From: Methanoculleus horonobensis
GTDB taxonomy: Archaea > Halobacteriota > Methanomicrobia > Methanomicrobiales > Methanoculleaceae
Assembly: GCF_001602375.1 (NCBI RefSeq)
Contig: NZ_BCNY01000015.1
Location: forward strand, 1-64,000
Reading direction: 5' to 3'
DNA length: 64,000 nucleotides
Below the pieces are notes generated by a model, which saw nothing but the letters and a program-made list of their open reading frames with translations, was not told the DNA's origin and ran no database searches. Below are positions 3,045 to 39,297 of the stretch, in pieces; the first letter of the stretch is position 1; each line of letters opens with the position of its first letter. The position numbers and the translations under genes were made by a program.

Positions 3045-4204
3045 AACCCGCGACGCTCGAGTTTGTGAAGCAGAGGTTCGCCGAGTACTACCAGAGGCAG
3101 AATCTCACCGTTCCGTCCTCCCTCGAGCAGCGCGAATGGGGATTCATCTTCTTCGACGCCGCGGCCGAGGTCCGGATGCGGCGGCACATGGCGTTTGCCG
3201 ACCGTGAGGAACTCGGGGCATACGTGAAAAGCCTGGTTCCCGCCCACGTCTACTACTCGACGGCCTACTACCAGACGCCGTCGGCGCCGACGATGAACGA
3301 GAAACACTGGGCGGGCGCCGACCTCATCTTCGATCTCGATGCCGACCATATCGTCCGCGGGCCCTACGCGATGATGCTTGCCCGGGTCAAGGAGGAGACC
3401 GAGAAACTGCTCGGGATGCTGACCGACGAGCTCGGTTTTGCCAGGAACCAGATCAGGATCGCCTTCTCCGGGGGGCGCGGCTACCATATCCACGTCACCG
3501 AGATCGCCGTCCGGGGCTGGAGCAGCCAGGAGCGGCGGGAGATCGTCGATTACGTCTGCGGCATCGGACTCGACCCGGCCGCGATGCTCACGCCGGGGGG
3601 CGGCGAGACCGAGTCAGACCTTCGGTCTGACCGGGCGGGCGCCGAAGGTGCCCGCACCGGGTGGCGGCGGCGCTACGTGGAGACGCTCCGCGCCCACCTC
3701 CTGGGTCTTGCCGCTCGCGACCCGGCGGAAGCGACGGCTTACCTCTCCGGGCTCGACGGTATCGGGAAGCGAACGGCCGCGGAGTTCCTTGTGGATATCG
3801 ACAGCCTCGCGGCCAATGCCCCCGAGGAACTCCTCAAGAACCGGGTCGTCCGGGCGATCACGGCCGCACCCGACTTCGAGGAGAGGCTCCGGGACGCGGG
3901 GGCGCGGGCGGACGAACCGGTCACGACCGATATCAAGCGGCTGATCCGGACACCGGGGTCGCTGCACGGCGGCAGCGGCATGCGAGTCGTGCCGCTCGAG
4001 ATCCGGGACTTCGCGGAGTTCGATCCGCTCGTGGACGCGGTGGTCTTCGGCGACCGCGACGTGCGGATCGACCTGAAAGTAAACTTCAGCACCTCCCTGC
4101 TCGGGAACACCTACTCGCTCAACGCAGGTGTCCAGAACGTCCCAGAAGCGCTCGCGATCTTCCTCTGCTGCCGGGGCGTGGCGGAGATAGCCGGGGGTGC
4201 ATGA
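3041..4204 (+). CDS. priS: DNA primase small (catalytic) subunit PriS
   Basis: Protein of 387 residues, the catalytic subunit of the archaeal/eukaryotic-type primase that starts DNA strands at the fork. FDLDAD at 97-102 carries the two metal-binding Asp, and SGGRGYHIH at 143-151 carries the nucleotide-binding His. A C-terminal block with RTPGSLHGGSG is also typical. A polar insertion around residues 188-210 looks lineage-specific. It overlaps Elp3 upstream and Gins51 downstream by 4 nt each, which links priming and helicase loading in one transcript. The large subunit PriL is not in the window. Confidence 0.95.
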   Translation: MKPATLEFVKQRFAEYYQRQNLTVPSSLEQREWGFIFFDAAAEVRMRRHMAFADREELGAYVKSLVPAHVYYSTAYYQTPSAPTMNEKHWAGADLIFDLDADHIVRGPYAMMLARVKEETEKLLGMLTDELGFARNQIRIAFSGGRGYHIHVTEIAVRGWSSQERREIVDYVCGIGLDPAAMLTPGGGETESDLRSDRAGAEGARTGWRRRYVETLRAHLLGLAARDPAEATAYLSGLDGIGKRTAAEFLVDIDSLAANAPEELLKNRVVRAITAAPDFEERLRDAGARADEPVTTDIKRLIRTPGSLHGGSGMRVVPLEIRDFAEFDPLVDAVVFGDRDVRIDLKVNFSTSLLGNTYSLNAGVQNVPEALAIFLCCRGVAEIAGGA

Positions 4205-4863
4205 TGACCGCCGATCTTTTAGAGAAACTCCGGCAGATGCTGCTCGATATGCAGCACTCGGGACGGCTCTCGCATATCGAGCCCGGCCTCTACGACGACG
4301 CCCGGGCGTACATCGAGAAGCGCAAGACGGACTACTACGACCTTAAAAACCCCCTGGAGAGCAGGATGGGGAGCCTGCTCATCGAGGAGATCGGCAGCGT
4401 CACCGAGACCGTCCAGGAGATCTTCTCGGTCAGGACCCGGCAGATCCTCGATCTTGCGTTCCAGCAGATGGAGGGACAGTACTTCGACAAGGATGAGGGG
4501 CGCAAGATGCTCCCGGAGGAGCGGGCGATGTACGAGCAGATCATCACCGCCATCAGGGAGTGCCGGGAGGCACTCGTCCGCGGCGGGGCCTCGCCGTTCG
4601 GCAGCGACAATGCGGCCGCCGTAGAGCGGATCGACGAGGGCGAAGGTCTTTCAGAACCCCGGAGAACGTCTGCGGTTCCCGCTCCCCGTCCCATCCAGTC
4701 TCCCTACGCCCTCGTGCATATCCGCTCCGATGTGGAGTCGTTCATGGGGATGGACGGCAGGACGTATGTCCTGGAGATGGGGGATATCGTCACCCTGCCG
4801 GAAAACAATGCAGACGTGCTCTGCGAGCACGACATAGCCTTAAATATTAGGCTTAACAAGTAA
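4201..4863 (+). CDS. gins51: GINS replication factor subunit Gins51 (Gins15-like)
   Basis: About 220 residues starting at ATGATG, overlapping the primase stop. An all-alpha A domain (residues ~1-140, with the YYDLKNPLESRMG and MLPEERAMYEQI helices) is joined by a Pro/Ser-rich linker to a small B domain (~165-220) that ends in a VTLPENNADVL strand. This A-then-B order is that of archaeal Gins51, which joins Gins23, MCM and GAN/RecJ in the replicative helicase. A priS-gins51 pairing is common in Euryarchaeota. The reading frame stays open far upstream, but that part is a shadow of priS. Confidence 0.85.
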   Translation: MMTADLLEKLRQMLLDMQHSGRLSHIEPGLYDDARAYIEKRKTDYYDLKNPLESRMGSLLIEEIGSVTETVQEIFSVRTRQILDLAFQQMEGQYFDKDEGRKMLPEERAMYEQIITAIRECREALVRGGASPFGSDNAAAVERIDEGEGLSEPRRTSAVPAPRPIQSPYALVHIRSDVESFMGMDGRTYVLEMGDIVTLPENNADVLCEHDIALNIRLNK

Positions 4864-4870
4864 TATAGGT
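4838..4870 (+). promoter_or_regulatory. Internal promoter for the L44e-S27e-aIF2-alpha genes
   Basis: CTTAAATATTAGG (about 4839-4851) and TAATATAGG (about 4861) are TATA-like boxes placed 35-60 bp before the L44e ATG at 4901, inside and just past the end of gins51. A GAGGTTA ribosome site lies before the ATG. This suggests the ribosomal genes can be transcribed separately from the primase operon. Confidence 0.5.
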
Positions 4871-4900
4871 ACTCGAATCTATTGAATAGAGGTTACTATC

Positions 4901-5179
4901 ATGAAAATGCCGTCAAAATTCAAGACATACTGCCCGTTCTGCAGGAACCACCAGGTTCACGAAGTCGTGAAGGTAAAGAGGGGCAAAGTGCGCCACTTCA
5001 ACTGGATCGACCGCCAGAAGGCGCGCAGGAGCACGGTGGGCAACATGGGCAAGTTCAACAAGGTGCCCGGCGGCGACAAGCCGACGAAGAAGATCAACGT
5101 CAGATACCGGTGCACGGTCTGCGGCAAGGCCCACCTTCGGCCGGGATTCAGGATCGGTAAATTCGAGCTTACGGAGTGA
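4901..5179 (+). CDS. rpl44e: Large ribosomal subunit protein L44e (eL42)
   Basis: Basic 92-residue zinc-binding ribosomal protein. Two CxxC pairs (CPFC near residue 11 and CTVC near residue 70) bind zinc, and the GDKPTKKINVRYRC stretch is characteristic of the family. In archaea it sits near the E site of the large subunit. S27e follows 6 bp later and aIF2-alpha after that, the usual archaeal order. Confidence 0.97.
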   Translation: MKMPSKFKTYCPFCRNHQVHEVVKVKRGKVRHFNWIDRQKARRSTVGNMGKFNKVPGGDKPTKKINVRYRCTVCGKAHLRPGFRIGKFELTE

Positions 5180-5185
5180 GTTGAT

Positions 5186-5374
5186 ATGGTCCGGGTAAAC
5201 AGAGAGAACAGGAGCACATTCCTCCGGGTAAAGTGCCCCGACTGTGAGAACGAACAGGTAGTCTTCGAGAGAGCGAGTACCGTCGTAGAGTGCACCGTCT
5301 GCGGACGTATCCTTGCGGAGCCCCACGGCGGGAAAGCTGATATAAAAGCTGAGATAATGGCAGTACTTGAGTGA
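5186..5374 (+). CDS. rps27e: Small ribosomal subunit protein S27e (eS27)
   Basis: Protein of 62 residues with a four-Cys zinc ribbon (CPDC and CTVC). FLRVKCPDCENEQVVFE and the ending around KADIKAEI match S27e. It lies between L44e and aIF2-alpha in one transcription unit. Its TGA overlaps the possible TTG start of the next gene. Confidence 0.96.
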   Translation: MVRVNRENRSTFLRVKCPDCENEQVVFERASTVVECTVCGRILAEPHGGKADIKAEIMAVLE

Positions 5375-5381
5375 TTATTAC

Positions 5382-6161
5382 ATGAACGAGAGAGAGTGGC
5401 CCGAGGAAGGAGAGCTCGTTGTCTGCACGGTCGCGGATGTCAAGGACTTTGCGGCGTTCGTGACCCTGGACGAGTACAACGAGCGGAGAGGGCTCATACC
5501 GATATCCGAGATAGCGCGGGGCTGGATCAAGTACATCCGGGACTTCGTAAGAGAAGGACAGAAGGTCGTCTGCAAAGTCCTGAACGTCGACCCCGATCGC
5601 GGCCACATCGATCTCTCGTTAAAAGATGTAAACGAGCACCAGCGGCGCGAAAAGGTTCACGAGTGGAAGAACGAGCAGAAGGCCTCGAAGTGGATCGGGT
5701 TCGCCTCCGAGGCGTCGGGGGTAGACAGGAAGATCATCGAGGAGGCATTCTTCCGTGAATACGGTCAGCTGTACCCGGCCTTCGAGGATATCGTCACCAC
5801 CGGCGGCGAGGCAGCGGATAAACTGAACCTTGATGAGCCGGTCAAAGCGGCGCTCATCACCGTCGCGAACGAGAACGTGAAGGTCTCGAGGGTGACGATC
5901 ACCGGGCACCTCGTCCTGACATCGTCGCGGCCCGACGGCGTCAACGTGATCCGCCGGGCGCTCCGGAGTGCGCAGCCGAAGGTCGAGAACGTGGATATCG
6001 ACCTGATCTACGTCGGAGCCCCGAAATACCGGATAAAAGTGACCGCGCCCGATTATAAAGAGGCCGAGAAGGCGATCGAGAAGGCGGCGAGCGCCGCCGT
6101 CGGCGTGGTCGAGCGGGCCGGCGGCTCCGGCAAGTTTATCCGGAAGCAGAAGGCCGGATAA
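5382..6161 (+). CDS. eif2a: Translation initiation factor aIF2 subunit alpha
   Basis: About 259 residues: an S1-type OB fold (residues ~8-85, with DVKDFAAFVTLDEY and GLIPISEIARG), a helical middle domain and a C-terminal alpha/beta domain. It joins aIF2-beta and -gamma to bring initiator Met-tRNA to the small subunit. I chose the ATG at 5382 because homologues begin close to the EWPEEGELV block. A TTG at 5367 is the in-frame alternative and would overlap S27e. The OB-fold loop is followed by YNERRGLIPIS, as in the archaeal family. Confidence 0.95.
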   Translation: MNEREWPEEGELVVCTVADVKDFAAFVTLDEYNERRGLIPISEIARGWIKYIRDFVREGQKVVCKVLNVDPDRGHIDLSLKDVNEHQRREKVHEWKNEQKASKWIGFASEASGVDRKIIEEAFFREYGQLYPAFEDIVTTGGEAADKLNLDEPVKAALITVANENVKVSRVTITGHLVLTSSRPDGVNVIRRALRSAQPKVENVDIDLIYVGAPKYRIKVTAPDYKEAEKAIEKAASAAVGVVERAGGSGKFIRKQKAG

Positions 6162-6167
6162 GACCAT

Positions 6168-6335
6168 ATGAGCAGCCGCATTCGCCGCTGTCCGCACGAC
6201 CGGCGATACACGCTCTCGGATCTCTGCCCGGTCTGCGGCCTGCCGTCCCGGCCGGCCCACCCGGCACGTTTTTCGCCCGAGGACAGGTACGGTAGATACA
6301 GGAGGGCCGTACGCAGATGGAACACGTCAGAGTAA
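6168..6335 (+). CDS. nop10: Nop10-like H/ACA ribonucleoprotein protein
   Basis: Short 55-residue protein that I read directly from the sequence. Two CxxC-type pairs (C8 with a nearby His, and CPVC at 20-23) and the PAHPARFSPEDRYGRYRR block are typical of archaeal Nop10. The family binds Cbf5 in the H/ACA pseudouridylation particle. It starts 6 nt after aIF2-alpha and overlaps the next gene by 19 nt. The aIF2-alpha, nop10, PAC2 order is widely conserved in Euryarchaeota. Confidence 0.92.
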   Translation: MSSRIRRCPHDRRYTLSDLCPVCGLPSRPAHPARFSPEDRYGRYRRAVRRWNTSE

Positions 6336-7063
6336 CCTTTCTACGGGACGACAATATCGATGCCCCGGTCCTGATCGAGGGTCTGCCCGGCATAGGACAC
6401 GTCGGGAAACTCGTTGCCGATCACCTGATCCACGAACTCGGGGCCGAGAAGATAGGGGAGATCTCCTCCCTCCACTTCCCGCCGCAGGTGATCGTCGACG
6501 AGCAGGGCATCACCCACCTCGTCAAGAACGAGATCTACCGCTACGAGACGGACGGCAGAGCAGCCCTCTTTCTCGTGGGCGACTTCCAGAGCAACTCGGC
6601 CGAAGGGCACTACATCCTCGCGGAGCACTACCTCGATATCGCCGAAGACCTCGGTGTCAAGCGAGTCTACGCACTCGGCGGCTACGGTGTCGGGCACCTG
6701 GTCGAGAACCCGAGGGTGCTCTCGGCGGTCAACATGGAGCACCTCCGCTCCGAGGTGGAAGCGGCCGGCGGGTCGTTTGAGAACGCCGGGAGCGGCGGGA
6801 CGATCGTGGGAGCATCCGGGCTCCTGCTCGGCCTCGGCGAGGCGCGGGGCATCGAGGGGATCTGCCTGATGGGGGAGACGAGCGGCTACATCGTCGACCC
6901 GAAGAGTGCCGAAGGTCTTCTTACGGTGCTCTCCCGCCTGACCGGGATCGAGGTCGACCATACCTCCCTGCAGCAGCGTGCCGAGGATATGGAGCAGTTC
7001 ATAGCTAAGATCCAGGAAGCCGAAGAAGCCAAAGGCCGCGAAGAACTGAGTTATATCGGATAA
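6317..7063 (+). CDS. PAC2-family proteasome-assembly-chaperone-like protein
   Basis: Protein of 248 residues with the family motif LIEGLPGIGHVGKLVADHL near residue 20, a central YALGGYGVGHLVENPRV block and a helical C-terminus rich in Glu and Lys. The family resembles eukaryotic proteasome assembly chaperone 2, but the archaeal function is inferred. Its start lies inside nop10, so it is translationally coupled and the last gene of the operon. A short T-run follows the stop. Confidence 0.88.
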   Translation: MEHVRVTFLRDDNIDAPVLIEGLPGIGHVGKLVADHLIHELGAEKIGEISSLHFPPQVIVDEQGITHLVKNEIYRYETDGRAALFLVGDFQSNSAEGHYILAEHYLDIAEDLGVKRVYALGGYGVGHLVENPRVLSAVNMEHLRSEVEAAGGSFENAGSGGTIVGASGLLLGLGEARGIEGICLMGETSGYIVDPKSAEGLLTVLSRLTGIEVDHTSLQQRAEDMEQFIAKIQEAEEAKGREELSYIG

Positions 7064-7075
7064 CCTCCTTTTTAA
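7064..7075 (+). terminator. Weak oligo-T terminator after the translation operon
   Basis: CCTCCTTTTTAATT directly after the PAC2 stop has five T in a row (7069-7073), the kind of T-run archaeal RNA polymerase stops at. No hairpin is needed or visible. Confidence 0.35.
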
Positions 7076-7185
7076 TTCCGGGCCCGGAGAGAGGCCGTCG
7101 TGGTGTCCGACGCGGCCATCGGCGACCCGTCAACCACCGATCCACCCGAACCGTTAAGAACCACAGGGATCGACAGATCATCGAT

Positions 7186-7638: not shown

Positions 7639-7689
7639 AGGCGGCCCGGTGACGGCACTCTGCTTCGCAATCCCATCGAGAACCCGGTT

Positions 7690-8112
7690 TTAACCGATCA
7701 CGGGGAGCCCGGCCGCCTTCCAGGCGCTCATGCCGCCCTCGATCTCGTAGACCTCGCGGAATCCGGCATCGCGCATCATCTCCCGGACACCGGAGCTCCG
7801 ACCGGCCCGCTGGCAGTAGATGAGGTAGGTTGCCCCGGGGTCGAGGTCATCAAGGTGCTCTGAGAAGTGTGCCGAGTCGATGTTGATCGCACCGGGGATG
7901 TGTCCGGCAGCGAACTCGTCGGGTCTCCGGACATCGATGATGACAAAACCCAGTTCGCCTCCCCCCCCTTCGATCAGGGTGGACGCTTCGAGCGGTGTGA
8001 TCGTCCGGACGACCTGAGCGTCGGGCGCAGGGCTGCCTTCGAGACACCCCACGACGAGCACAAACGCAACAGCGAGCAGGAACGCGGGCAGGAGAGGGTG
8101 ATGAACGGTCAT
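7690..8112 (-). CDS. Rhodanese-domain lipoprotein
   Basis: Protein of 140 residues. Residues 1-22 are a signal sequence ending at a lipobox-like VVGC, so it is probably anchored outside the membrane. The rest is one rhodanese domain with DVRRPDEFAAGHIPGAINI and the active-site loop CQRAGRSSG, whose Cys should carry the persulfide. The substrate is unknown. It is transcribed convergently to the RDD gene and lies downstream of the degenerate ABC ATPase, with no sign of coupling. Confidence 0.85.
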   Translation of the reverse strand: MTVHHPLLPAFLLAVAFVLVVGCLEGSPAPDAQVVRTITPLEASTLIEGGGGELGFVIIDVRRPDEFAAGHIPGAINIDSAHFSEHLDDLDPGATYLIYCQRAGRSSGVREMMRDAGFREVYEIEGGMSAWKAAGLPVIG

Positions 8113-8204
8113 GCTTCCATGTCACGGCCGCAACGATAAAGCGGTTTCGATCGTCCCGGCTGCTCCTGTCGCCGGGTTCGCCAGGGTGCAACGACCCGGG
8201 ACGC

Positions 8205-8924
8205 TCAAGCAGGGTTGTCGAACTCGATCGGCGTCTCGTCGAGGGCCATCACCTTACGGAAGGTCTCCGGCGTGTCCAGGGCAACGACCTCACCGCGGTC
8301 CACCACCGCAACCCGGGTACAGATCGCCTCCGCCTCTTCCACATCGTGCGTCGTAAAGATGATCGTCGCGCTCCGCTCGCGGTTCAGCCGCCGGAGCAGG
8401 TTCCAGGTCTCCCGGCGCCCGGCATCGTCCAGACCGGCCGTCGGTTCGGCAAGGAAGATGACCGACGGGTGCGTCAGGTATGCCCGGGCGATCTCAAGGT
8501 GCTGCAGCATGACGGGAGAGTAGGTCTCGACAGGAGCATCGGCGCTTCCGGCGATGCCGAAGAGGTCTACGACATCGGGGATCCTCCTCCTCCTGAGATC
8601 ATCGCCCAGGCCGTGCAGCCGGGCTTGGAAGTCCAGGTTCTCCCTGCCGGTCAGCGCAGGGTCGAGCACCGGCTCCCGGAGAACGATGCCCATGCTTCTG
8701 CGCACGTCCCCGAGGTTGCCGAGAATCGCAAGCGGTGAACGCTCGGCAAATCCCGGAACCGGAAAGAGCATCGTCATGAGAATGTCAATCAGGGTCTGCC
8801 GGTCCTGACCGCAGGGACAGAGGATACCAAAGATCTCTCCGCTCTTGACGTCGAATGGGATTGGGCCCCTTGCCTGAAGTTGCTCCAGATGCCGGATCAG
8901 GTCTTCAACGGTAAAAGCAGTCAT
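8205..8924 (-). CDS. Degenerate ABC-type ATPase domain protein
   Basis: Protein of 239 residues with the full ABC ATPase fold (drug/Na export type), but every catalytic motif is altered. The Walker A position reads CPCGQDRQT with no Lys, the signature is YSPVM in place of LSGGQ, and Walker B ends LAEPTAGLD with Ala for the usual Asp. I checked these on the reverse complement. The D-loop, the switch His (FTTHDVEEAEA) and overall length are kept, and the frame is intact. No permease is adjacent; the nearest ABC-2 permease is at 25 kb. It may be a non-hydrolysing regulator or a slowly decaying gene. Confidence 0.8.
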   Translation of the reverse strand: MTAFTVEDLIRHLEQLQARGPIPFDVKSGEIFGILCPCGQDRQTLIDILMTMLFPVPGFAERSPLAILGNLGDVRRSMGIVLREPVLDPALTGRENLDFQARLHGLGDDLRRRRIPDVVDLFGIAGSADAPVETYSPVMLQHLEIARAYLTHPSVIFLAEPTAGLDDAGRRETWNLLRRLNRERSATIIFTTHDVEEAEAICTRVAVVDRGEVVALDTPETFRKVMALDETPIEFDNPA

Positions 8925-9375
8925 GCTCCTCTGCAGAGATACAATCGGCCGGAACGGAGTTGTTCCCGACCACCCACCATCCCCGAAATCTGCACAGGAT
9001 TCGTACCGATCGGAAACCTCTCTGAGCGAGGGCGGCCGGCGATTGTTATCCGGTGCCTGTTACCGGATTCGGGGAAGGAACTATTGGATTAACACTATTT
9101 TTGGTTACGCATATATGAATATATCTATTTCAAAATGAATATAAAATACGCAATTTAGGATTTCTATTTTATATTGACTCCCCCTTTTACGTTATCATCG
9201 GTGATCTTCAACATTCACAGGATGCTAAAGCAGGCCGGGTTGGGCGGCGCCGATCGGTTCAGATGACCGTCAGGTCGACGTCGTGCGGGAACCGTCCCAC
9301 GGCACGTCTCCGGGGGGCTCGCCGGGGAACGGCCCGTGAAACTATTTATGGCATGAACCCCGGTATACCCGGCCA
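8925..9375. promoter_or_regulatory. AT-rich intergenic region between ABC-like and DUF1614 genes
   Basis: No convincing gene is seen in these 451 bp. Bases 9085-9180 are much richer in A and T than the surroundings (GCATATATGAATATATC and TTTTATATTG), consistent with promoter DNA or old foreign DNA. ACTATTTATGG near 9342 is a TATA-like element for the DUF1614 gene that starts at 9376. Confidence 0.4.
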
Positions 9376-10083
9376 ATGGAGACCGAACTGCCCGCAATCG
9401 CGATTCTTCCGGTTCCTCTCAGCCCGGAGCAGATCGTCATTGCGTTGGCGGTTCTCATACCGGCCCTGGTTATATTCAACCTCTTCCTCATCAGCGAGGG
9501 GATCTTCGAATTGATCGGGCTCCGGTTCTACCAGGCGCTGCTGGTGACCGCAGGGGCGCTGCTCGGGAGCCTGATCGATATCCCGCTCCTTTCATTAGGG
9601 GAGGACATCATCGCGGTCAACGTGGGCGGGGCCGTCATCCCTCTCTTCGTAACGCTCGAGATGGTCGGGCGGGGCCGGGTTTCGCGGCTGAAGTCCCTTG
9701 CCGCCGTTCTTCTGGTCTCGCTCGTCGCCTACGCCGCTGCAACGCCCGTTCCCGGCCTCGGGATCACGATGCCGTTCTACGTCGCACCCCTCGCAGGAGC
9801 CATGACGGGGCTCCTTCTCGCCCGCGGCTGCCGGGCCGCTCCCGGCCTCGCCTACGCGGGCGGAACCATGGGCACCCTGCTCGGGGCCGATATCCTCAAC
9901 CTCGCGAATCCCGACGTGCTTTCGGCGCTCACCACAAGCGGGCCGACCGTCCTCTCCATCGGGGGCGCGGGGATCTTCGACGGCATCTTCGTCACCGGCG
10001 TCCTCTCCGTCCTGCTCGCGGCGTATGCGGGGAGGGGGCTCCGGGAGAAGGGAGGGGTCTGCCCGCAGGAGGGAGGGGAGTGA
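9376..10083 (+). CDS. DUF1614 family membrane protein
   Basis: Protein of 235 residues with six or seven hydrophobic segments. The DUF1614 hallmarks are a PVPGLGITMPFYVAPLAGA loop near residue 120 and the late SIGGAGIFDGIFVTGVL block. A middle segment contains GGTMGTLLGADILNL. The function of the family is not known; the polar residues inside its membrane helices suggest transport or membrane catalysis. It stands alone, followed by a repeat element. Confidence 0.8.
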   Translation: METELPAIAILPVPLSPEQIVIALAVLIPALVIFNLFLISEGIFELIGLRFYQALLVTAGALLGSLIDIPLLSLGEDIIAVNVGGAVIPLFVTLEMVGRGRVSRLKSLAAVLLVSLVAYAAATPVPGLGITMPFYVAPLAGAMTGLLLARGCRAAPGLAYAGGTMGTLLGADILNLANPDVLSALTTSGPTVLSIGGAGIFDGIFVTGVLSVLLAAYAGRGLREKGGVCPQEGGE

Positions 10084-10211
10084 GGGGGAGAACTCCGGGA
10101 TGCAGAGCGAACTCACCAAAAATACGGTACATTGCGCAAACCTAGTGCACACGAGTTCTCAAAGATTGTAAGTACCCAACACTTGAAACGAGGAAAAAAC
10201 CCGGTGCAGTG

Positions 10212-10506
10212 GACCGTGGGGATATCGCGTCTGGGGGAGGGCGACTGGCCGAAGGGCAGGAGCACGAGAAGAACGAAGTTCTTCGAGGGGCTGACGGGGA
10301 GTGCGATGGTTCGTAGAACCGGAGCTCGACCACCGTCAGGTGGGGAGGGGGGAGTATTCCCCCCTCGAAACCCTTCGGGTTTCTCAAGCTTGCTGCGCTC
10401 GCACTCCGCACCCTTCGGGTGCTCGAGCTCCGGGCGTGCCGCCCATCGCACTCCCCATTGTCCCCACCCCCCTCTCGGCGATATCCCCTTGAAATCCGTG
10501 TATGGA
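10212..10506. repeat. Hairpin-rich intergenic repeat element, including dispersed repeat copy 2
   Basis: A long imperfect inverted repeat. The left arm (GGGGATATCGC near 10218, GGGGAGTGCGATGG near 10299-10312, CGGAGCTCGA near 10320) returns as its reverse complement near 10420-10490. Inside are two short perfect hairpins with C(UUCG)G loops, at 10367-10383 and 10408-10422, plus GGTTCGTAGAACC and a G-run/C-run pair. The right end (10457-10506) matches bases 18-66. Open frames crossing it have biased composition and no recognisable domain, so I treat it as non-coding. It probably recurs elsewhere in the genome. Confidence 0.65.
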
Positions 10507-10550
10507 GTATGCAACCGAAAGGGAAGTATGAACCGCTTGAAGGGCACTGC

Positions 10551-12383
10551 TCAAAATTCAACTGCTCCATCGGCATTCTCCGCCTCAAACGCCCGGAGCC
10601 ACATCTCCGCGCAGGCTATCCGCCAGAACTCGGTAGAATAAGGACTCTTCCCCTCGAGGAACGCCCGGTAGTTTTCGAGCACCTGCTCCGCGTCCCAGTA
10701 GGGCCGCTCTGCGAATTCGGGCGTCGAGAAGAGGTCGAGGATACGCGGCGCAAGTTCGCCCTTCATCCAGACCTCCTCGGGGGTGACGAACCCCATCTTG
10801 TCCATCCTGCACCGGACGGCGTCCGGGACCAGCCCCCGGATCGCCCGCCGGAGGACGTACTTCGTGACGCCGCCGCGGATCTTCTGGTCGATCGGGAGCG
10901 ATCCGAGGTACTCCACGAGCCGATAATCGAGGAATGGAACCCGCGCCTCGATCGAGAAGGCCATCGAGTTCCTGTCCTCCCAGTGGAGCAGGAGAGGGAG
11001 GTTCGACGCCGTGACCTCTCGTTTCAGCACCTCCTCAAGCGACCCCGCATACCGGAGGATCTCCGGCGGCGATCCCCGGAGGAGTTCACGGCGCTGCGAC
11101 CGTACCCGGGATTGAGCAGCCGCCCACGAGAAGAACGACCGGTGGTGCCGTACACTCCCGATCCCCTCCCGGAGAGCAGCAAGGAACTTGCGCCGCCGGA
11201 GGAGACCGCGGATATAAGGCGCCTGGTAGGCGATGTAGCCGCCGAGCTGCTCGTCGGCGCCCTGCCCGTCGAGAACCACCTTCACCTCGTTCTGTGCGAG
11301 CCGCATCACGCAATACTGGGCGTAGATCGAGAGGGATGCAAACGGCTCGTCCTGCATGTAGAGCAACCTCTCGATATCCTCCCAGAGCCCCTCCGTGCCC
11401 GGCGTCGTCCGGCGGTTCGCGACGCCGGTCGCCGCGACCACCGTCTCGATATGCCGGCTCTCGTCGAATCTCGGATCATCGAAACAGACCGAGAACGTCT
11501 TCTGCCGCTCGCCGACGCTCTCCGGGCTCTCCGCCTGCAGGAGAACGTTGATCAGGGCGGTGACCGTCGAGGAGTCGATGCCGCCGGAGAGGCAGGTTCC
11601 GACCGGGACGTCGCTCCGGAGCCGGAGCCGGACGGCGTCGGTCAGGAGATCGCGGACGTCGCGTGCGGCGGCTTCGTCGTCGGCCCCGCCCGGAGCGCCG
11701 TTCATCGCGAGGTCCCAGTAGCGTTCCGGCTCCCCGACGCCTTCCGCGGAGACGAGGAGCGCATGGGCCGGCGGGAGCTGGAAGACACCGTCGTACATCG
11801 TCTCGGCGGTGTGATCCGCAACCCCCCATGCAAGGAACGTCGAGAGCATCCGGTCGTTCGGCCGCCGGCCGACCCCGGGATGCACCCGGAGCGCCTTGAT
11901 CTCCGAGGCAAAGAGGAACGAGCCCCCGGTCACGACGTAATAGAACGGCTTGACGCCCAGGCGGTCCCGGGCGCAGAAGAGTTCGCGGCGGCGCCCGTCC
12001 CAGAGGGCGAACGCCCACATCCCGTTGAACCGGGCGAGGCAGCCCCTCCCCCACTCCTCGTAGGCGTGCAGGATCACCTCCGTATCGGATGCGGACGCGA
12101 AACGGTGGCCGGCGACCGAGAGTTCCTCCCGGATCTCGCGGTAGTTGTAGATCTCGCCGTTGAAGACGATCTGAAGCGACCCGTCCTCGTTTCCCATCGG
12201 CTGGCGGCCTTCGTCGGAGAGGTCGATGATCGCAAGGCGGCGATGGGCAAGGCCGACCGGCCCGGAGAAGAACGTTCCTTCGCCGTCAGGGCCGCGATGA
12301 GCCAGCCGCCGGGCCATCTCCCCGACGAGAGCCGCATCCGCATCCTCCCCGTTCAGGGCAAACTGCCCGGCAATACCGCACAT
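10551..12383 (-). CDS. asnB: Asparagine synthetase (glutamine-hydrolysing)
   Basis: Protein of 610 residues. The mature N-terminus is Cys2 (MCGIAGQF), the nucleophile of the class II glutamine amidotransferase domain (~1-215, with RGPDGEG and NGEIYNYREIREEL). The C-terminal synthetase domain has the PP-loop LSGGIDSSTVTAL near residue 255 and a late RVPFLDYRLVEYL block. It converts aspartate to asparagine with ATP and glutamine. Length is full and the start is fixed by the required Cys2. It lies about 20 bp after the AhpD-like gene, so it may be read through from the marker operon. Confidence 0.95.
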   Translation of the reverse strand: MCGIAGQFALNGEDADAALVGEMARRLAHRGPDGEGTFFSGPVGLAHRRLAIIDLSDEGRQPMGNEDGSLQIVFNGEIYNYREIREELSVAGHRFASASDTEVILHAYEEWGRGCLARFNGMWAFALWDGRRRELFCARDRLGVKPFYYVVTGGSFLFASEIKALRVHPGVGRRPNDRMLSTFLAWGVADHTAETMYDGVFQLPPAHALLVSAEGVGEPERYWDLAMNGAPGGADDEAAARDVRDLLTDAVRLRLRSDVPVGTCLSGGIDSSTVTALINVLLQAESPESVGERQKTFSVCFDDPRFDESRHIETVVAATGVANRRTTPGTEGLWEDIERLLYMQDEPFASLSIYAQYCVMRLAQNEVKVVLDGQGADEQLGGYIAYQAPYIRGLLRRRKFLAALREGIGSVRHHRSFFSWAAAQSRVRSQRRELLRGSPPEILRYAGSLEEVLKREVTASNLPLLLHWEDRNSMAFSIEARVPFLDYRLVEYLGSLPIDQKIRGGVTKYVLRRAIRGLVPDAVRCRMDKMGFVTPEEVWMKGELAPRILDLFSTPEFAERPYWDAEQVLENYRAFLEGKSPYSTEFWRIACAEMWLRAFEAENADGAVEF

Positions 12384-33324: not shown

Positions 33325-33594
33325 TACGATTCAGTCGAGACATTATAGAGCACTTGTGTGCCGCCATAACTCAGTTGGTAGAGTGGCTGGCTGTTAACCA
33401 GCATGTCACAGGTTCGAGTCCTGTTGGCGGCGTTTCCATCTCCGGTCTTTTCAGCAGAATCACGCCTTATTGCACCCCGTATTTTCATTCCCGCGATCTC
33501 TCCCCTGAGCGCCCGAAGACCTATACAACACATTGTCCCGATCGTTTTGGTTCTGCAAAAAAGAATTCCCGTGATGTCTGATACGATTCAGTCG
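33305..33594. repeat. Direct repeat flanking tRNA-Asn (33305-33337 and 33562-33594)
   Basis: AGAATTCCCGT, a variable 6-7 nt, then ATACGATTCAGTCG occurs at the end of the winged-helix gene and again 257 bp later, past tRNA-Asn. The two 33 bp copies differ at about five positions. Between tRNA-Asn and the next gene (33433-33747) no reading frame is convincing and no integrase is present. Confidence 0.6.
33360..33432 (+). tRNA. tRNA-Asn (anticodon GUU)
   Basis: The 73 nt fold as a cloverleaf: acceptor GCCGCCA pairs with TGGCGGC, the D arm holds AGTTGGTAGAG, the anticodon loop CTGTTAACC has GTT, and the T loop is GGTTCGAGTCC. The discriminator base is G, as expected for Asn. CCA is not encoded. 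No intron is seen. Confidence 0.96.
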
Positions 33595-33747
33595 GCGTCT
33601 TTCCGAATCCTCGTTACCCCACGCGAAGGCTATGTCGACCGGGTCGGGATACGCCTCCGCACCGAAGTCTCCGCTCTACGACGATGAACGCCGTTTTGCA
33701 CCGCTACGCACAGAACCTCATGACGAGACGGGTTCTCTCGGGCAGGG

Positions 33748-33933
33748 TTACTTGCTCCAGGGCGATTGCCCCGAGACCAGGAGTTTCTCCGGCCGGTGCC
33801 CGTCCACCCCGGCGTCCTGCTTTGCCGCCGCCTCCAGGCATTCCGCGCTGCAGTAGGGTACGCTTTCGCCTGCGGCTCGCTCCTTCAGCGAGAACTCCCG
33901 TCCGCAGTATCCACAATAGGCTAATTTTGGCAT
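33748..33933 (-). CDS. Small zinc-finger protein (TRASH/YHS-like)
   Basis: Protein of 61 residues. CGYCGREF near residue 7 and a second YCSAEC pair 20 residues later form a likely four-Cys zinc site, similar to small TRASH/MYND-like metal-binding modules. AGGTGAG lies 7 nt before the ATG, a strong ribosome site that supports real coding. Function unknown. Confidence 0.7.
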   Translation of the reverse strand: MPKLAYCGYCGREFSLKERAAGESVPYCSAECLEAAAKQDAGVDGHRPEKLLVSGQSPWSK

Positions 33934-34119
33934 CCGAACTCACCTGAAGATAGAAAAGGTATGTCAGAGGATAAACTTTCCCCCAGGTTCCGAAAGATCG
34001 CCATCGGTCGATCCAGAATTGTCCGTTCGATGAACCGGAGACGTCCGGCGGATGGCCTCGTGCATGGGAGTGCCCCCTCCTTTTACCGGCGCCGGCAAGG
34101 CGATGCTAAGGGCACACCT

Positions 34120-35958
34120 TTACGCGGCCCGCTTCAGCGTGAACCGGAACGCCGCCCCCGCATCCGGGGCGCCGGGCACCCGGTCTTCAACCCGGATCCA
34201 CCCCCCATACCGTTCGACAAGCATCCGGCAGATGAAGAGTCCGAGCCCCTCTCCGCTTCCCCGTCCCATGCCCCGCTCGAACCTGGCAAAGAGCCTTTGC
34301 TTTATCTCGTCCGGTATACCCGGACCGGTGTCCTCGACCGAAACCAGCACCTCCCTGTCCTGCACCTCTACCCGGATGGTGATCCTAACATCGGGACCGC
34401 CGAACTTCACGGCGTTGCCGATCAGGTTGATAAAGACGGTCGGGAGGAGGCCGTCCGCCAGCACCTCGATCTGCGGGTCAGGGTAGTCGATCGATGCCTC
34501 GGGGAACCTGCCGATCTCGTTTCGGATAACCGCGTCGAGGTTCACCGGCACAAGGCCGGTCTCTTCTTCGTGTATCCGCCGGACGGTGGCGACGCTCCTG
34601 AGGATATCATTGCTTCGCTCGATGCTGCCCTGCAGCTTCTCCGCATAGGTCTTCAGGTCGCCGTCGGCGAGCTCGGTCAGGAGGTCGGCATACATGCCCG
34701 AGACGTTGTTCGCGTTCCGCACATCGTGGGTCAGGATGTCGAGGTACATATGCGCCTCGTCGCGTGCTGCTTCCACCTCCGCGCTCTTCCGGGCAAGGTC
34801 TTCGGCGCGGCGCCGGAGTGCTTCTTCCGCTCGCTTGCGGCCGGTGATATCCCGGACGATCATCGTCGTTCTGGCGTTTCCGTCTCTGTCCGTGTAGAGT
34901 GCAGACGATATCTCAACGGGGAAGACGGTCCCGTCTTTGCGCCGGAATCGGAGTTCCCCCCTGAACTGCCCTTTCCTGGCTCTCTCCTCAAGGCAGGATC
35001 GGAGGCGCGGGTCCGATGGATCCATGACGCCGTCCCTCCCTGCACGGATGAGTTCCTCTTCGGTCATGCCGAAGATCCGGCAGGCTTCACGATTTGCGGC
35101 ATAGATTGAGCCGTCGGGAGCGGTGAGAAGGACTGCGTCGATGCTGTTCTCGACGAGGTTCCGGTACTGATCCTCGTTCTCGCGGAGGGCTTCTTCTGCT
35201 CGCTTGCGGTCGGTGATGTTACGTGCATTCACCACGAAACCCCGGACAGCCGGCTCTTTTACAAGATTGATACCGATTACGTCGAAGTTCAACCACTCTC
35301 CTGATTTGTGCCGAAGCCGAACTTCGAGGGTGACCCGGTCCTCCGGATGGGCGGCAACAGTGGAGAGGGCATTCGTCACCAGCGACAGATCGTCGGGATG
35401 CGTCAGTTCGATGGCATTTCGCCCGATGAGTTCTTCGGGCGCATATCCCCCGACCTGCCGCACCGATGGGCTTGCATACGAGATGGTTCCGCCTGCATCG
35501 AGAACGATGACGATATCGGAGGCGTTCTCGGTGAGGAGCCTGAATCGTTCTTCACTCTGCCGTAACGCGTCCTCGACCTTTTTGCGCTGGGTGATATCTT
35601 TTCCGTATACGTTCACGTAGTGCAGATCCCTTAACGGAACAAATGTGAGGAGGTAGGTCTCTGCACCTACGCGGTGCTCCACCTCCTGCCGGACACCGGA
35701 CGCCAGGGCTGTTTCTGCTATCGCGGCAATATTTTCGGGGACATCCGTGCCGGGGCCGGCGAACGCCTCTGCAAATGCCGCCCGGGCTGCGCTGTTGGCA
35801 TAGATGATGGTGCGCCCGTTGTCAAGCCGCAGGGTTGGATTAGGATTTTCGGCAGGGAACCGGGCAATGGACTGGAGTTCCTCCTGTGCCCGCTTGCGCT
35901 CCTTGATCTCGCTCTGGAGCCGGATGTTGGCACGTTCGAGTTCGGCAGAGCCGCGACC
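34120..35958 (-). pseudogene. 5'-truncated multi-PAS sensor histidine kinase
   Basis: The frame is open from 35958 to the stop at 34120 (about 612 codons) but has no usable ATG upstream; a GTG at 35682 is the first listed start. Reading it from 35958 shows a coiled coil (ELERANIRLQSEI), a PAS domain running across that GTG, at least two more PAS domains, a dimerisation helix with the phospho-acceptor His (YLDILTHDVRN) and a catalytic domain (NLIGNAVKFGG and VEDTGPGIPD). The kinase part is intact, but the N-terminus is cut at about 35945-35958, where a second, oppositely oriented kinase begins. Confidence 0.75.
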
Positions 35959-36623
35959 TTAAAGAGGCACGGAACGAGGCGAACCTGTACCTCGATATCC
36001 TGACCCACGATATCGGGAACACCGAGAACGTCGCGAACCTCTATGCCGACCTGCTCCTCGGCACGCTCTCGGGGGATGCTGCCATATATATCAAGAAACT
36101 CAAGCGCAGCATCGATAAGAGCATCGAGATCCTCGGAACCGTCTCCACCATCCGCCGGATCCATTCCGGGTCGCCGGAGATCAAGGCGATGGATCTGGAT
36201 GCGGTCATCAACGAAGAGATCAGCCACTACCCCGGGAGCAGCATCCGCTACGAAAATGCCCCTGGACTGATTCTTGCCGACGACCTCCTCCGGGAAGTCT
36301 TCGCAAACCTGATCGGCAATGCCGTCAAACACGGTGGTCCCGATGTCGAGATCACGATCCGGACGGAAGATGCGGGGGGGGTTGTCCGCGTCTCGGTCGA
36401 GGATACCGGCCCGGGCGTGCCGGACGACCAGAAGGAGGCGATCTTTCATCGATACGAGCAGCAGAAGCGGGGTGTCGGGGAAGGGCTGGGGCTCTACCTG
36501 GTGCAGATCCTGATCGACCGCTACGGGGGGAAGGTCTGGGTCGATGACCGGGTGCCCGGCCGGCCAGATGGGGGGGCGGCGTTCGTCTTCACGCTCCAGA
36601 AGGCTTCACCCGTCCCCGGGTAG
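35946..36623 (+). pseudogene. 5'-truncated histidine kinase, C-terminal half
   Basis: The plus-strand frame, open from 35907, encodes a kinase linker (RDLKEARNEANLY), the His box YLDILTHDIGNTENV and a full catalytic domain (NLIGNAVKHGG, VEDTGPGVPDDQ and GLGLYLVQILIDRYGG). It has no sensor domains and no start before an internal ATG at 36189, which would omit the His box. It is a paralogue of the minus-strand kinase it abuts head to head. Either it is a rearrangement remnant, or the join is an assembly fault. Confidence 0.75.
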
Positions 36624-36669
36624 GATCGCGACCCGTCCGCCCGTCTCCTCGATACGGGGGCCTACGGGC

Positions 36670-38115
36670 TCACCTGAGCCACCCAATCTTGTAAAAGATC
36701 CAGCCGACCCCGAGCATGGCGATCACCGTCCAGACGGTCACCTGCCAGAGGTAGAGGCTGAAGGGGACATCAAGGGTGTTCATCCCGAGCATCTGGCCGA
36801 CCAGCGTCGGGATCAATACGAGGGCGGAGAGGACGGCGATCACCCGCATCGCCCGGTTCATCTCGTAGGAGACGGTGTTGATGTGGACGTCGATCAGGGT
36901 GAGGAGCCCTTCCTGGATGTTCCCGGCGGTCTCGTGCAGGTAGTCCGTCTCGCTCGCGAGGGCGTCGAAGATACTCTTCTGCCCCGCCCATGACCCCGAA
37001 ACGGAGATGCTCCGCGCGAGGACCGTTGTCACCTCCCGCTCGTGAAAGAGGCTCGAAGCAAGAGCGCTGCTTATCCGCTTGAGGTGGAAGACGGAATCGA
37101 GGAAGTTCTTCGGCATCTCGTTGCTCGGGGTGCCCTCGAGGCGCAGCAGCTCGGCTTCCAGTTCCACGAGGATCGCGGCGTAGTTCTCGTTGATCCGGTC
37201 GAGGGCTCCGTAAAGGACCCGGGAATGCAGGGGAACCCCGGGAAGGGCGTTCGCACCGAGACCTGCCTGGACCTGCTCGAAGAAGTGGTCGCGTGCCTTC
37301 GCGACGGTGGCGATCGTTTCACCCCGGTTCACGACGATGAGCCCGATCTTCGTCACGCCCGGAACCGGGGCACCTTTGCGAACGCGGCTGATCTGTTCCG
37401 GCTCCTGCACGAAGATGAGCCGGGTTGCCCCGGCGGAGGTTATCCCCGGGTGGGACGGTCGCATCAGCCGGCTCTCGAAGTAGACGGCGGGAACCCCGAG
37501 GAGTTCGGCGAGGATGGGAAAGTCCGGCCGGGAAACCCCGGAGAAGTCGAGCCAGACCCCGGCCGGGGCGCTCTCGAGGTACCGCTTCGCCTCCTCGGAG
37601 GTGAGGTCGAGCACGTCTCCGGTCCCCCCCGCCATTCCGCGGATCCGCATCGTCGAGAACGGTGGCGGTGCAGGCTCCAGGGCAGTGACCTCCGGCTCGA
37701 TCCGCCGCTCCACTGACCGCCCGCCGGCCGCCGCCACCCGAACCACCCGGAGGAGCCGGAGCGCGGGGGACGACCGGGCAAGGGTCGAACCGGCCACCGG
37801 AAGCACCTCGAGAGCCGGGAGCGTGATGATGACGAGGTCGAGGAGGTGCCAGCGGTCCAGGAAGTGGCTCACCCGGTTCTCCGCAAGGCCCAGTTTGAGA
37901 AAGTACTCGATGACGAAGATGGCGATGATCAGGGTGTCGGCGAGGTTGAAGAACTCGATGACCGGTTCCGGGAGGGCAAAGAGGAGGGGCAGGATGACGA
38001 TCGGGGCCATCACCAGGCCGAGGAAGATCATCAGGCCGTCGGAGAGGATGCGGTAGACGAGATCCCGTGCGGCCGCCTTTCTCCCCTTCTCCCCCGAAGA
38101 CCGGAGCCCCTGCAT
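36670..38115 (-). CDS. Voltage-sensor-like domain fused to a CorA-type channel
   Basis: About 481 residues; the ATG at 38115 has an AGGAGAGG site upstream. Residues 28-48, 57-77, 90-108 and 118-130 are four hydrophobic segments like a voltage-sensing S1-S4 unit, and the fourth has Arg every third residue (R120, R123, R126). Residues ~150-481 are a CorA domain with a long helical funnel, two final membrane helices and the selectivity motif GMN at 444-446. CorA proteins carry Mg2+ (or Co/Ni). An N-terminal voltage-sensor-like unit is not part of standard CorA. Confidence 0.8.
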   Translation of the reverse strand: MQGLRSSGEKGRKAAARDLVYRILSDGLMIFLGLVMAPIVILPLLFALPEPVIEFFNLADTLIIAIFVIEYFLKLGLAENRVSHFLDRWHLLDLVIITLPALEVLPVAGSTLARSSPALRLLRVVRVAAAGGRSVERRIEPEVTALEPAPPPFSTMRIRGMAGGTGDVLDLTSEEAKRYLESAPAGVWLDFSGVSRPDFPILAELLGVPAVYFESRLMRPSHPGITSAGATRLIFVQEPEQISRVRKGAPVPGVTKIGLIVVNRGETIATVAKARDHFFEQVQAGLGANALPGVPLHSRVLYGALDRINENYAAILVELEAELLRLEGTPSNEMPKNFLDSVFHLKRISSALASSLFHEREVTTVLARSISVSGSWAGQKSIFDALASETDYLHETAGNIQEGLLTLIDVHINTVSYEMNRAMRVIAVLSALVLIPTLVGQMLGMNTLDVPFSLYLWQVTVWTVIAMLGVGWIFYKIGWLR

Positions 38116-38257
38116 ATCGTTCCTCTCCTGATGACCGGACAAGAGCCGCGGATGAGGTGAAGGGGTTTCGTCGTGTATATATACCCTGGGTTGCGGGCCG
38201 CTGGAGACTGCCCTGGTGAGCGCAAGAGTTATCCCTTCCGTCTCCAGCAGTCGTTGC

Positions 38258-38654
38258 ATGCCGATAGACGCTTTTCGCATCGACACTCCCGGGCAGGTCC
38301 TGGACGACCTCCGGGTTCGGCTCCGCGAGACCCGTCTCCCCGACGAGGTCGAGGGTTCGGGCTGGGACTACGGCACGAACCTCGGTTACATGGAAGAACT
38401 GGTCGACTACTGGCTGAACCGGTTCGACTGGCGGGCTCGCGCTCCCCCCGAAGGATATCGACCCGATTCCGCCGCGGGAGTATGCGGAGCGCAACCTGAA
38501 GGATATCCGGCGCTGGACGGTGCTTGAACACGGCGGCCACTTCGTGGCGATGGAGTTCCCGGATCTCATGGCCCGGGAGATCCGGGAGTTCTTCCGGCCG
38601 CTCTGTGCGACCCGGAGGGAGGCGATCCCGAAAGGAAATCTTCGTAACCCCTGA
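38258..38654 (+). pseudogene. Epoxide hydrolase remnant with internal deletion
   Basis: The first ~60 codons (TPGQVLDDLRVRLRETRLPDE, then GWDYGTNLGYMEELVDYW) match the N-terminal domain of epoxide hydrolases. Near 38436 the frame shifts, and the next ~70 codons in another frame match the far C-terminus (PPREYAERNLKDIRRWT, EHGGHFVAMEFPDL and IREFFRPL). The middle, with the catalytic Asp and most of the alpha/beta-hydrolase core, is absent. No active enzyme can be made. Confidence 0.82.
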
Positions 38655-38687
38655 AGTCGAGCTCCATGCATCGATGGGGAGAACGAG

Positions 38688-38834
38688 ATGCCGAGGCTGG
38701 TGCTGATCGATACGGCGACGGGGACGCGGATCCGCCACCGCATCAGGAGCCTGAAGCAGGCTCTGAAGCAGCAGGAGTGGTACGAGACGAAACTCGGGCG
38801 GCGGGTGCGGATCGAGAAGGTCTTCGGACGGTAG
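38688..38834 (+). CDS. Small basic protein of unknown function
   Basis: Protein of 48 residues, read directly: MPRLVLIDTATGTRIRHRIR at the start, then a helix ending GRRVRIEKVFGR. A GGGGAG site lies 9 nt upstream. It has two strands and one helix by pattern and is strongly basic. I do not recognise the family. Confidence 0.5.
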   Translation: MPRLVLIDTATGTRIRHRIRSLKQALKQQEWYETKLGRRVRIEKVFGR

Positions 38835-38889
38835 CACCGCTCCGGGCGGCGGGAAAGAATGATAGTCCTGCCGGACGTACCTGACAATC

Positions 38890-39297
38890 ATGCACGGCGA
38901 TGCGGCGGAACCGGTCTCGCTTGCGGACGCTATAGCGGCGGCGGAGGTCTCCCGCCGGGAGAAGAAGAAATACCCGGCGATTGCGGCAGGGCTTTCGCTC
39001 CTCTTCAACGGCCTCGGCCAGGCCTACAACGGACAGTTCGCACGGGGCGTCCTGGTGCTGCTCGGAAGCCTCCTCGGCCTCTTTGTCATGATCGTTCCGG
39101 GGGTGGCGATCTGGGCCTGGGGCGTCTACGACGCCTGGGCCACGGCCCAGCGGATGAACGAGGGGCTCGTCCCCTACCGGGAGACGAGTCCGCTCGAGAT
39201 CGTCGCGTTCGTGGTCGTCTGGGCGGTGACGATCTTCCTGCTCTCGGCGGCGTCGGCGATGCTGCTCGTCGCGCTGGGGCAGCAGGGGATGCTGTAG
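38890..39297 (+). CDS. TM2/DUF5683-like membrane protein
   Basis: Protein of 135 residues. A cytoplasmic helix rich in Lys/Arg (EVSRREKKKYP) is followed by hydrophobic segments containing LLFNGLGQAYNGQFARGVLVL, which resembles TM2-type proteins (GxGQxYxGxxxxG), and then a last segment. It is 3 bp upstream of the flavoprotein gene, so likely cotranscribed. Function unknown. Confidence 0.7.
   Translation: MHGDAAEPVSLADAIAAAEVSRREKKKYPAIAAGLSLLFNGLGQAYNGQFARGVLVLLGSLLGLFVMIVPGVAIWAWGVYDAWATAQRMNEGLVPYRETSPLEIVAFVVVWAVTIFLLSAASAMLLVALGQQGML

Follow-up and report, generated by a model that had tools for sequence, protein, structure and literature searches.

The window analyzed in this study, a 64,000-nucleotide stretch of the Methanoculleus horonobensis genome (contig NZ_BCNY01000015.1), very probably carries the scar of a single deletion of approximately 4.1–4.3 kb. 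The deletion affected a locus composed of two divergent histidine kinase genes (designated A and B) with a gene for a KaiC-like ATPase (kaiC) between them, and the ends were rejoined at the tetranucleotide CGGC. In our interpretation, inverted paralogues have here been subject to recurrent deletion, within a variable spot beside a tRNA-Asn gene. Divergent paralogues are inverted repeats of each other and can be lost together with an intervening gene, here one for a KaiC-like signalling ATPase. The window case represents, for the most part, the usual decay of genes at an unstable site, and its modest significance arises from the recurrence of the loss; the genus Methanoculleus provides a set of naturally occurring variants in which palindrome-linked deletion can be tested in archaea.

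Kinase gene remnants in the window

The frame of kinase A (minus strand) is open from position 35958 down to the stop codon at 34120, and that of kinase B (plus strand) from 35907 to 36623. Stop codons bound them at 35959–35961 and 35904–35906, respectively, in full agreement with the frame limits given in the initial annotation. Comparison with related genomes revealed that genuine kinase A sequence extends to 35946 and genuine kinase B sequence starts at 35943, the bases past 35943–35946 in either open frame being the antisense of the other kinase gene. This places the head-to-head junction in the coiled-coil linker of both genes, as previously proposed. The accompanying description of the kinases as truncated at the same point holds insofar as both are cut in the coiled coil, but not for what remains of them, since A keeps PAS domains and the kinase core, and B the kinase core only.

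The A remnant (34120..35946, minus strand) encodes PAS domains, an H-box and HATPase_c (Pfam PAS families and HATPase_c), and lacks approximately the first 200 codons, including the start and PAS1. Its DNA is 77–92% identical to gene A of three relatives (Methanoculleus sediminis S3Fa, designated G011, and genomes G007 and G008). The B remnant (35943..36623, plus strand) encodes only an H-box and HATPase_c (Pfam HATPase_c families) and lacks approximately the first 234 codons; at the DNA level it is 83% identical to the B genes of G011 and G008. The combination of PAS and HATPase_c domains in this pair resembles that of methanogen PAS sensor histidine kinases. A census of archaeal histidine kinases reported HATPase-lacking kinase-like genes in Methanoculleus marisnigri JR1 (PMC5847659); unlike these genes, the window pair retains HATPase and has lost its 5′ ends. 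The consulted passages of the same work do not mention the locus.

No in-frame ATG, GTG or TTG codon is present at the junction for either kinase, which bears out the earlier statement that neither has a usable start there. The first such codon of A is GTG 35682, located midway through a PAS domain, where alignment identified it as an internal valine codon position common to the relatives. In the case of B it is ATG 36189, 183 nt beyond the H-box histidine codon at 36006, which, judging from the motif LTHDIGN, presumably specifies the phosphorylated residue. The intact relatives combine a PAS sensor, an HATPase_c core and a start codon, whereas the window remnants contain the domains but are startless at their cut ends. 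Since A has no start near the cut end and the first start of B lies past the H-box, both fragments are almost certainly pseudogenes, as far as can be judged from their sequences.

Alternatively, the shortened kinases might be translated from internal starts and keep their function. Neither frame is interrupted by a stop codon or frameshift, and in-frame CTG codons are available at 35832 (A) and 35985 (B). In addition, dN/dS on the window branch is low: 0.22–0.23 for B and 0.20–0.25 for A, i.e. not higher than between relatives (0.24–0.29 and 0.29–0.53, respectively), the A comparison with G007 being blurred by domain differences and the B figures by a core exchange described below. We nevertheless regard working remnants as improbable, because GTG 35682 occupies the internal valine position, B would be initiated past its H-box, and the upstream regions of both genes, as judged against G011, were removed with the deletion. 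A recent deletion would give low dN/dS values too, and this is their plain reading.

Intact arrangement in related genomes

In M. sediminis S3Fa both kinases are complete and divergent, with the KaiC-like ATPase gene between them (A on the minus strand; kaiC and B on the plus strand). At this locus (L029), A occupies positions 3782–7141 (1119 aa), kaiC positions 7670–9442 and B positions 10110–11492 (460 aa). The KaiC-like protein was assigned to NCBIfam NF006799 (713 bits, cut-off 408) and scored under the cut-off of TIGR02655 circ_KaiC (326 of 546 bits). The same trio, in the same order and orientation, was identified in G007, in which the front of B is kept and its 3′ end is cut. This B copy is fused, at the 7-bp match CGGGCTG (L030:2332–2344), to a remnant that we take to be derived from an epoxide-hydrolase-like gene, forming a 481-aa open frame.

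Window positions 35582–35945 show 91% identity to L029:6177–6540, and positions 35943–36626 show 83% identity to L029:10812–11495. Orthologues of both remnants are found in matching order and orientation in G011 (complete) and in G007 (with B cut at the 3′ end), and the window therefore corresponds to this arrangement minus 4274 bp (G011 coordinates) or 4140 bp (G007 coordinates). The NF006799 family member placed between two divergent kinases in G011, as in G007, is absent from the genome of the window. No published account of the A-kaiC-B locus was found in the literature searched, which covered few of the subscription journals.

The deletion junction and the missing DNA

Ungapped comparison with G011, G007 and G008 localized the junction to CGGC at 35943..35946, a tetranucleotide common to the A and B parents: base by base, the window tracks the A parent as far as this tetranucleotide and the B parent from its first base onward. 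The breakpoints map to L029:6537–6540 and L029:10812. In 200,000 random breakpoint pairs drawn on the G011 parent, a match of at least 4 bp occurred by chance in 2.0% of cases and one of at least 7 bp in 0.07%, which makes the 4-bp match weak if taken alone.

Apart from three short, weak matches of 50–72 bits, no copy of the 4311-bp stretch missing relative to G011 was detected in the window's own genome, nor did the KaiC protein have a match there at E 1e-30. The window thus shows a single clean junction, and the missing segment is absent from its genome. Of the genus's 35 genomes, seven contained a match to the KaiC protein, four of them (including G011) with at least 86% identity. Relocation of kaiC was rejected, as this search gave no match in the window's own genome.

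The initial annotation had explained the junction by an inversion or recombination through similar linker sequences, an event which would have joined the two 5′ parts to each other elsewhere. A and B are indeed paralogues arranged as inverted repeats, and a hybrid B-A kinase in G025 indicates that exchange between them does occur. However, A and B are already head-to-head neighbors in G011 and G007, in the same order as in the window, and it is the stretch between them that is gone. The two sides of the junction have just 4 bp in common and do not lie in matched homologous sequence. A search of the genome for the reciprocal junction, as had been suggested, yielded no such structure: the missing DNA does not recur in any other part of the genome, so there is no reciprocal junction, and neither 5′ part is copied, which contradicts an inversion unless its reciprocal product was lost later. 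We consider this explanation extremely unlikely.

Misassembly, also raised earlier, would imply that the real chromosome retains A, kaiC and B and that the part between the cut ends was passed over during assembly. The division of the genome into 15 contigs leaves room for such a fault. On the other hand, the assembly is 99.85% complete and kaiC is missing from all of it; the junction carries no long near-identical repeat, its sides sharing only 4 bp, and the best other match to the region in the genome does not exceed 76% identity. Moreover, a similar join, at another breakpoint, is present in the single-contig genome of G006. An assembly fault is therefore very unlikely, and a deletion remains the preferred reading.

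Inverted repeats and the possible mechanism of deletion

The 5′ parts of A and B form inverted repeats in both intact relatives: 353 nt at 84% plus 262 nt at 80% identity in G011 (arms at L029:6513–7139 and 10139–10765), and 638 nt at 82% in G007, with the arms approximately 2.8–3.0 kb apart. The G011 parent thus contains an inverted repeat between or beside the breakpoints, the deletion ends being located close to the outer ends of the arms, approximately 30 bp to the inside for A and 47 bp to the outside for B. No inverted repeats of at least 30 nt are left at window positions 35500–36400.

The DNA that the window lacks extends from the coiled coil of A to that of B, and the starts and N-terminal PAS1 of both kinases were lost with it, together with all of kaiC. 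The paralogous 5′ ends, as inverted arms of approximately 630 bp, could form a hairpin aiding deletion by slippage or end-joining, with short direct matches near the hairpin base used for rejoining. That the inverted layout helped the deletion in this way has, in our estimation, slightly less than an even chance. The hairpin or slippage step is one that we only infer, because the 4-bp match is weak alone and the corresponding join in G008 has no clear microhomology.

Slippage in vitro at a hairpin with short direct repeats has been described for the replicative polymerases PolB and PolD of Pyrococcus abyssi (PMC4134008). As in that system, the junction in the window has a short direct match, and the deleted stretch contained inverted arms; in contrast, the arms considered here are imperfect (80–84%) and approximately 2.8–3.0 kb apart, and the process is deduced from sequence comparison.

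Other head-to-head junctions

Three different A/B head-to-head junctions were distinguished: that of the window and, in other species, that of G008 and one common to G006, G012 and G031. In G008, A and B are joined inside PAS1, with arms of 339 nt, 33 nt between them and no kaiC; comparison with the parents revealed no clear microhomology at this join. The loss in the window may also have proceeded in two steps, first of the loop, as in G008, and then of the palindrome.

In G006 (a single contig), G012 and G031, all that remains of the two genes is roughly the final 61 bp of A and the final 75 bp of B, with the join at CCGGGCACCCGG, a 12-bp sequence present in A and B of both G011 and G008 (the A side of G031 was read by eye, unaligned). 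In B of G011 and G008 this site lies within CCGGGTGCCCGGGCACCCGG, a 20-bp palindrome coding for RVPGHP. Since the latter sequence is palindromic, it can act as a direct repeat even when the two genes that contain it are inverted; in this variant, the short direct repeat of the junction comes from a codon string that is the same on both strands.

In trees of the rpoB region (22 genomes) and of the flank (17 genomes), the window groups with G007, G011, G006 and G012, and G008 is placed in another clade. The grouping of the window with the intact loci of G007 and G011 supports the deletion. Because intact loci sit among deleted ones in these trees, the window and G008 represent separate deletions, barring horizontal movement of the locus. 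The flank tree places G006 and G012 as sisters, but the rpoB tree does not. For G031 no rpoB match was found; in the flank tree it falls with G014 in the other clade, and the junction it has in common with G006 and G012 therefore means either transfer or a repeated event. The rpoB domain PF00562 was detected twice in G006, with equal scores (C1:276042–277157 and 291762–292877, 15.7 kb apart within the single contig), reflecting either a duplication or an assembly repeat.

Probable exchange of kinase modules and cores

From approximately position 35976 on, the window B sequence resembles a G018 kinase more closely than it does the B genes of G011, G008 and G007, and the 33 bases before this point are B-like. 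The G018 kinase (L034:3633–4272), 92% identical to window positions 35976–36615, has a quite different N-terminal part, which suggests that kinase cores may be exchanged at the H-box. In the window, the exchange probably preceded the deletion. The affinity to G018 counts against the deletion as reconstructed above, in that the pre-deletion gene was not exactly of the G011 type.

The hybrid kinase of G025 (C3; L032:4667–7657) lies after kaiC on the same strand; approximately its first 400 nt are B-like and the rest is A-like. Simple inversion of the spacer was rejected as its origin, since the orientation of the hybrid gene with respect to the flanks is at odds with such an event, and we regard this kinase as only a recombinant. 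One could view the intact A-kaiC-B locus as a sensor-swapping device, whose inverted 5′ ends would exchange PAS1, as in the hybrid of G025, between two kinases that have a single KaiC-like ATPase in common; the head-to-head scars (window, G008, and G006/G012/G031) would then be its failed products; such a role seems to us quite doubtful.

The set of PAS/GAF modules of kinase A differs between G011, G007, G008 (L029, L030 and L031, respectively) and the window (34120–35946), with changes at repeated linker sequences, a pattern that looks like in-frame module shuffling.

Variability of the spot beside tRNA-Asn across the genus

The region adjoining the genes for the peptidase, wHTH and tRNA-Asn was examined in the window and 24 other genomes, which makes 25 of the 35 available for the genus. 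The left border is the tRNA-Asn (gtt) gene (33359..33433, plus strand; ARAGORN), which was found at the spot in all 14 loci scanned, and a blastn match borders it in 24 of 24. The right neighbor of the remnants is a CorA-like gene (36670..38286, minus strand; TIGR00383 corA, 64.5 bits, under the cut-off of 200.75), also present in G011 and G008. A conserved small ORF (38890..39297, plus strand), which from its hydrophobic sequence is, in our reading, membrane-protein-like, also flanks the spot on the right in relatives and was taken as the right border. The contents between these borders (33359–39297) vary over the 25 genomes and include PBP4-like, kinase, kaiC, epoxide-hydrolase-like and CorA-like genes.

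The complete A-kaiC-B trio was found in one of the 25 genomes (G011) and the trio with B cut at the 3′ end in another (G007). Head-to-head remnants are present in five (window, G008, G006, G012 and G031) and other related kinases in two (G018 and G026). One genome each has kaiC with the B-A hybrid (G025), A but no kaiC at the spot (G002), and approximately the final 76 aa of A (G009). No A or B was found inside the spot in the remaining 13; among these, the stretch is short in G021 (2.5 kb), the right border was not reached in G017, G029 and G001, and G014 and G034 have matches only beyond it.

Pseudogenes formed by deletion occur in variable, tRNA-bordered spots of prokaryotic genomes. The wide variation in content between tRNA-Asn and the right border conforms to this pattern; unlike at ordinary tRNA-bordered spots, one divergent kinase pair has been repeatedly lost here, with a head-to-head join each time.

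Outside the 25 genomes, a 3.5-kb contig of G024 carries kaiC together with the front part of B. Within the window, remnants of two epoxide-hydrolase-like genes are located to the right of the CorA-like gene (38216–38820); in G011 an intact pair lies to the left of it.
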